IMG/VR virus record: IMGVR_UViG_3300042868_011386
Span: 1 to 64,000 of that record
Strand: one strand, 5' to 3'
DNA from: a virus
Length of the DNA: 64,000 nucleotides
Positions 26 to 308 of the stretch are shown in pieces (within the stretch, counting starts at the first letter, position 1; each line of letters starts with the position of its first letter). The position numbers and the translations under genes are program-made. The notes beneath the pieces are model-generated. The model worked only from the letters and a program-made list of their open reading frames with translations, was not told the origin of the DNA and did not search any database.

Positions 26-308
26 GGGCTTGTAGCTCAGCGGTAAGAGCAGTCGACTCGATAGGGTCTTCTTATTAGAAATAGTAAGTTAGCAGAACTT
101 AAATTCAGGGAACGCTTAACGGGTAATGCCGATGCCAATCCTGAGCGAAACCTCGAAAGAGGGACGTGCAGAGACTATAATAGTTCAATCTTAACAGGTT
201 ATGCTGAAGATTAAGGGATAGTCCAGACCACAAACTGAAAAGGTAGTGAAAACTATAGTGGTAAGCATAATCGATTGGTCGCAGGTTCGAATCCTGCCGG
301 GCCCACCA
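26..308 (+). tRNA. tRNA-Ile2(CAU) interrupted by a group I intron
   Basis: Exon 1 (26-58) gives acceptor strand GGGCTTG, a D arm and the anticodon 5' stem GTCGA followed by CT. Exon 2 (266-308) gives CATAA, stem TCGAT, a GCAGG/CCTGC T arm with TTCGAAT loop, acceptor CGGGCCC, discriminator A and encoded CCA. Joining them produces a 7-nt loop CTCATAA with anticodon CAU. The GACTCATAATC context and TTGGTC variable region resemble bacterial tRNA-Ile2, whose C34 is modified to lysidine so that AUA is read; elongator Met is less likely. The intron falls between U33 and C34. Without splicing the anticodon loop cannot form. Confidence 0.9.
59..265 (+). ncRNA. Group I self-splicing intron in tRNA-Ile2
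   Basis: This 207-nt intron has a recognisable group I core. P1 forms between exon GACU (55-58) and the internal guide GGUC (65-68), with the expected U-G pair at the 5' splice site. A P4-like pairing joins CAGG and CCTG in the context CAATCCTGAGC. P7 pairs GACTAT (173-178) with ATAGTC (218-223). The last base, G265, is the expected omega-G. The core words AGAGACTA and ATAGTCCAG are shared with small tRNA introns such as the Azoarcus tRNA-Ile intron (about 205 nt, from memory). No endonuclease ORF is present, so the intron appears immobile by itself. Confidence 0.88.

Follow-up and report, generated by a model that had tools for sequence, protein, structure and literature searches.

Do positions 26 to 308 of the window (the whole stretch of viral DNA analysed, 64,000 nucleotides) hold a single tRNA gene split by a group I intron, and if so, how could such an intron have come to sit in a phage tRNA? 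The phage is T4-like, on the evidence of a gp6-like baseplate protein that has its nearest named match, at 37%, in a Methylophilales phage.

The interrupted tRNA gene

The gene and all of its parts are on the + strand. The 5' exon (26-58), defined by the sequence, by ARAGORN in intron mode and by the stem pairings, has U33 (base 58) as its last base. The 3' exon (266-308), defined by reading the sequence and by scripted stem pairing, opens with the anticodon C34-A35-U36 (266-268). The acceptor stem (GGGCUUG 26-32 with CGGGCCC 298-304, 7/7 pairs), the D stem (35-38/47-50), the anticodon stem (GUCGA 52-56 with UCGAU 271-275) and the stem of the T arm (281-297) are all completely paired, and are followed by A73 (305) and CCA (306-308).

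It had originally been predicted that the anticodon loop is complete only once 59-265 is removed. This is exactly the call made by ARAGORN in intron mode, which reports a tRNA [26,308], (cat), i(34,207), that is, a 207-nt intron before base 34. The loop of the joined exons reads CU/CAUAA (the slash marks the splice site). Run without introns, ARAGORN recovers a clean tRNA from the joined exons after excision of the 207 nt, and finds no tRNA in the unspliced gene 26-308. Default runs of Rfam and ARAGORN overlook the gene; low-threshold and intron modes are needed.

A CAU anticodon does not by itself tell Ile2 from Met, and ARAGORN labels the tRNA Met from the anticodon only. An elongator methionine tRNA, in which there would be no lysidine step, is a minority reading, unlikely on balance but deserving some weight. 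Against it, the tRNA has C4-G69, U12-A23, C29-G41, A37, A38 and A73, which we take to be isoleucine identity determinants, and AUA accounts for 40% of the isoleucine codons in 25 ORFs of the window. The tRNA is most likely tRNA-Ile2, reading AUA. Of the name tRNA-Ile2(CAU) given to it at the outset, the CAU anticodon is confirmed and the Ile2 part is likely, given these determinants.

Architecture and covariation of the intron

The segment 59-265 is a group I intron in the tRNA(CAU) gene, inserted directly after U33. It is 207 nt long, has no ORF and ends in a 3' terminal omega-G (G265). Scripted pairing of the window sequence gives standard pairs throughout P1, P2, P3, P4, P6a, P7, P8 and P9. 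In P1 the exon end GACU (55-58) pairs with the internal guide GGUC (65-68), which gives the 5' splice site its U58-G65 wobble, and both boundary marks (a U at -1 paired with G, and the omega-G) are therefore present. P2 (71-77/82-88) is capped by a GAAA tetraloop (78-81), and P3 (GAACU 95-99 with AGUUC 182-186) and P4 (UCAGG 105-109 with CCUGA 140-144) are, like P2, supported by both pairing and covariation. The guanosine-binding helix P7 (GACUAU 173-178 with AUAGUC 218-223) is supported by pairing and invariance, and P8 (AAUCUU 187-192 with AAGAUU 207-212) and P9 (ACCAC 227-231 with GUGGU 258-262, with an inner hairpin 244-247/252-255) by pairing and the alignment of relatives. The intron thus has the P3-P9 core with its P3/P7 pseudoknot, as well as P4-P6. 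The pairings P1, P4 and P7 and the omega-G had all been proposed from the sequence, and all of them hold. The small size and the position in the anticodon loop are as in group IC3 tRNA introns (ARAGORN, pairing script).

The Rfam model RF00028 matches 44-247 on the + strand with E 2.2e-9 in a 700-base search, at 42.3 bits, which is below its curated gathering cut-off of 50 bits, so that default cmscan overlooks the intron. The covariance check proposed in the original prediction therefore gives a significant match, but one that falls under the curated score. In a genome search the match has E 6.6e-11. Close relatives score 61 bits (tRNA-Leu introns) and 90 bits (a Klebsiella phage intron), and the match is far from chance, despite its score. 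Folding gives a minimum free energy of -84.4 kcal/mol (z -2.9), and none of 200 shuffles is equally low.

Covariation was analysed in 36 related phage introns, with 500 shuffles as control. The proportion of cells that pair is 82.6%, compared with 72.0% in shuffles. The number of cells changed on both sides is 192 against 66.8, and the covariation score is 0.323 against 0.121, with none of the 500 shuffles as high. The tested structure is somewhat favoured in this comparison, as it was taken from the window, while the counts for P1 and the anticodon stem are lowered, these being out of register in rows with other insertion sites. When partners are slid by one to three columns, paired cells fall to 28-44%. 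Both sides change among the relatives in all five pairs of P3, where 92.8% of cells are paired; in P4 the proportion is 98.3%. The first five pairs of P7 are invariant across the 36, and the support for P7 is conservation, not covariation. RNAalifold independently recovers most helices, with compensatory change in 30 of 48 pairs.

The closest intron that differs from that of the window (L041) does so at 16 of 207 bases. Pairing is kept in every case where these differences fall inside the marked helices, with double changes in P4 (G-C to A-U) and P6a. The original prediction of an ORF-less group I intron between U33 and C34 is thus borne out by the covariance match, the 36 covarying relatives, the exact ARAGORN call and an intronless allele in a related phage (L014), which is described below.

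Alleles of the locus and possible homing

The tRNA and its intron are found in five other contigs (L002-L005 and L012), 99.7-100% identical to the window. These are independent metagenome contigs, and the arrangement is therefore not an assembly accident. L014 has the same tRNA as an intronless allele, and L041 has its window-like intron in another CAU tRNA, of which the acceptor and D loop differ. At these loci the intron is variably present, and it occurs in two distinct tRNA genes. The exon sequence flanking the intron, GTCGACT/CATAATCGATTG, is shared between L041 and the window, a pattern expected of co-conversion, though the shared stem may instead reflect the need to pair in P1.

In L006-L011, a GIY-YIG ORF splits the ortholog of the window tRNA exactly after ...GGGTCT, which is U33; the ORF has Pfam matches to NUMOD3 and SegE_GIY-YIG. 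A complete replacement CAU tRNA follows the ORF (L006 2200-3010). This endonuclease gene destroys a tRNA yet supplies a spare. No relative of the L006-type GIY-YIG was found in the window's own record, an 89-kb fragment. The contig of L011 also has the window-type intron in a different CAU tRNA (L054). At the same locus in L013 (about 2905-2993) there is a chimeric, mispaired remnant of tRNA-Ile(GAU) and tRNA-CAU, downstream of a homing-endonuclease-like ORF.

In three of the related contigs (L003, L004 and L014), tRNA-Leu(UAA) is interrupted by a group I intron, of which a 57-nt stretch at the 3' end matches the window at 93% (L003, L004) and 84% (L014). An HNH ORF lies directly upstream of the tRNA-Leu intron in these three and is absent from the other 11 records searched. 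A similar HNH protein, the likeness being judged by eye, is encoded inside the tRNA-Leu intron of L114. The GIY-YIG break at U33 and the tracking of the Leu intron by HNH are circumstantial signs of homing.

Our explanation of the locus, which as a whole we hold with high confidence, is a CAU tRNA, most likely Ile2, with an intron, probably of IC3 type, that would be spliced out, a predicted lysidine step and probable homing in trans. In the precursor, the GACU that ends the 5' exon would pair with the guide GGUC to form P1 with its splice-site U-G. A guanosine bound in P7 would then attack after U58, and U33 would in turn attack after omega-G265, joining the exons into a standard tRNA. This could receive lysidine at C34 from the host TilS, in which case maturation would involve both of the processing events proposed in the original prediction. 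The intron itself codes no protein, and most likely would spread by DNA homing with an endonuclease supplied in trans: an intronless tRNA(CAU) would be cut site-specifically at the anticodon loop and repaired from an intron-bearing copy, and the repair would drag along short flanking exon tracts. Collaborative homing has been described (PMC2988022, PMC10448857).

The insertion could instead be fixed or decaying, with a group I fold that splices poorly or not at all, in a pseudogene whose role has passed to other CAU tRNAs. The RF00028 score under the curated cut-off would fit this, as would L006-L011, in which an insertion has destroyed the tRNA and a substitute is present, and the second CAU tRNA (L232) in the genome of L012. 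It is nevertheless distinctly improbable: the core helices are all intact, the marked-helix substitutions relative to L041 all keep pairing, the intron is identical in several contigs, and the acceptor, D, anticodon and T stems are wholly paired. A non-group-I insertion removed by proteins (of the archaeal bulge-helix-bulge type), or a stretch that is rich in palindromes by chance, is rejected as hardly credible, in view of the RF00028 E-value, the U-G at the 5' site, the omega-G, a P3/P7 pseudoknot backed by P3 covariation and P7 invariance, and the failure of all 200 shuffles to fold as well.

Other phage tRNA introns and known systems

An exact pattern of the 3' half occurs in at least 119 viral contigs, and among the matches listed nearly all copies precede tRNA 3' halves. 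Full-stem parses among these listed matches are of Leu(UAA) at 34/35 (at least 52), CAU at 33/34 (at least 10), Leu at 33/34 and Arg(UCU) at 34/35 (at least three each) and UCA at 34/35 (at least two), with Lys and Asn once or twice each; low-score parses with a TTAT loop are wrong frames and were excluded from the counts. Pattern scans favour close relatives of the window 3' half, and these proportions are therefore no census. A CAU-specific pattern is present in 41 viral contigs, with about 20 distinct introns (the 5' end being parsed for part of them), and a 36/37 pattern finds 25 distinct introns in CAU tRNAs, plus two in Thr(UGU). In L212-L214, from the same phage group as the window, the intron is read as being in Asn(GUU), at 35/36.

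The intron position given by ARAGORN is ambiguous in several relatives (Leu, Stop and Thr are named for CAU or Asn tRNAs), and boundaries in these were therefore set by the rule of a preceding U and a terminal omega-G. In the relatives parsed end to end, a U precedes the intron. In the loop CUCAUAA, the splice-site U can only be U33 or U36, and introns occur after each. A simple tree (one method, support values not considered) places the CAU 33/34 introns at three or more separate positions within the Leu introns, which suggests repeated moves between sites. Judged from these sequences, introns of this kind are a common feature of viral tRNA genes, and that of the window belongs to a large family.

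Several loci in this family have unusual features. The 290-nt tRNA-Leu intron of L024 (5732-6108, minus strand) has in its P6 region a tRNA-like segment, GTGGGTG...CACTCACA, whose loop is TTCGATC; this intron, itself in a tRNA gene, may enclose what is left of a second tRNA. L072 and L134 have a UAA anticodon and a 5-nt variable region unlike that of tRNA-Leu, and each is interrupted at 34/35 by a group I intron. In L128 and L099, UCA-anticodon tRNAs are interrupted, the introns being 605 and 568 nt long; that of L099 contains an ORF with a Pfam match to a PD-(D/E)XK endonuclease, and the L128 ORF looks alike.

Named phages are also represented. Agrobacterium phage Atu_ph07 has an unannotated 278-nt intron in tRNA-Leu(UAA), the 735-kb uncultured phage LR756501 has one of 205 nt in the same tRNA, and the Klebsiella phage OU509535 has one of 228 nt in a CAU tRNA at 36/37. 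Introns go unmentioned in the huge-phage paper. A sample of 399 bacterial genomes was drawn from the phylum to which a Micavibrio MAG belongs, a phylum chosen through two pattern loci themselves without an RF00028 match; two of the genomes have the CAU 33/34 signature (L243 and L244). In L243 it adjoins an rpoD-like gene, and the site is therefore not phage-only.

A 2014 review placed all phage introns known at that time in protein-coding genes, despite the many phage tRNAs (PMC3984707). In contrast to this, viral tRNA introns extend to the records of the cultured Atu_ph07 and the Klebsiella jumbo phage. A search of open-licence papers yielded no description of group I introns in phage tRNAs. 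Routine tRNA scans without an intron mode overlook these genes, and phage tRNA counts are consequently too low. A bolder reading, less likely than not, is that mobile group I introns have in phage tRNA genes a large reservoir that has been overlooked, where they might use any anticodon-loop U (U33, U34, U35 or U36), and that phages may carry tRNA introns into bacterial chromosomes, among them the introns at the tRNA-Leu(UAA) site, which is supposed to be ancient. The recurrent use of loop U, with endonuclease genes at the same spots, makes it testable in phage crosses how tRNA introns arise and spread; for the tRNA-Leu(UAA) intron this has been long debated, and the phage system opens a direct test.

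The Azoarcus pre-tRNA-Ile(CAU) intron is about 205 nt long, with a GNRA-capped P2 and its site at CAU/AA. The window intron resembles it in being a small ORF-less group I ribozyme in a CAU anticodon loop, also with a GNRA-capped P2, but is in a viral gene and lies before the anticodon (U33/CAU). The original prediction of a splice site three bases before the Azoarcus position was correct; CAU/AA is the site in the Klebsiella phage and some 25 viral-contig introns. The Azoarcus intron is classed as IC3 by a reference cited in PMC3984707. Most bacterial tRNA introns are just 3' of the anticodon (PMC4033280), and no mention of a site 5' of it was found in open-licence reviews.

The sister introns in relatives of the window phage occupy the classic tRNA-Leu(UAA) site, U34/A35, with the same core layout, whereas the window copy is phage-borne in a CAU tRNA and one base earlier. 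The cyanobacterial tRNA-fMet intron, whose insertion site differs from that of the window, also interrupts a CAU tRNA; it comes with I-Ssp6803I, a PD-(D/E)XK enzyme of the type encoded by some phage UCA-tRNA introns (L099), while the window intron is ORF-less. The introns of td, nrdB and nrdD are, as is predicted for that of the window, self-splicing introns of a T4-like phage, but are in protein genes.

The window also encodes a phage tmRNA (9686-10012), whose tag peptide ARAGORN seems to have read in the wrong frame; an alternative frame gives EKNEKDTLALAA and then TAA, as tags normally end, and has a non-alanine resume codon. Among relatives of the window phage, L224 (about 1140-1745) and L225 have a tmRNA (tag end ANRVFAPQGELALAA) that is interrupted in its T loop, after the last loop U, by a group I intron; this is the known tmRNA intron position. 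Such tmRNA introns are in the T loop and that of the window in the anticodon loop, yet they share a boundary rule, a U at -1 and an omega-G, which has been put forward for tmRNA introns along with the idea that sites offering a -1 U are pre-adapted (PMC11915505).
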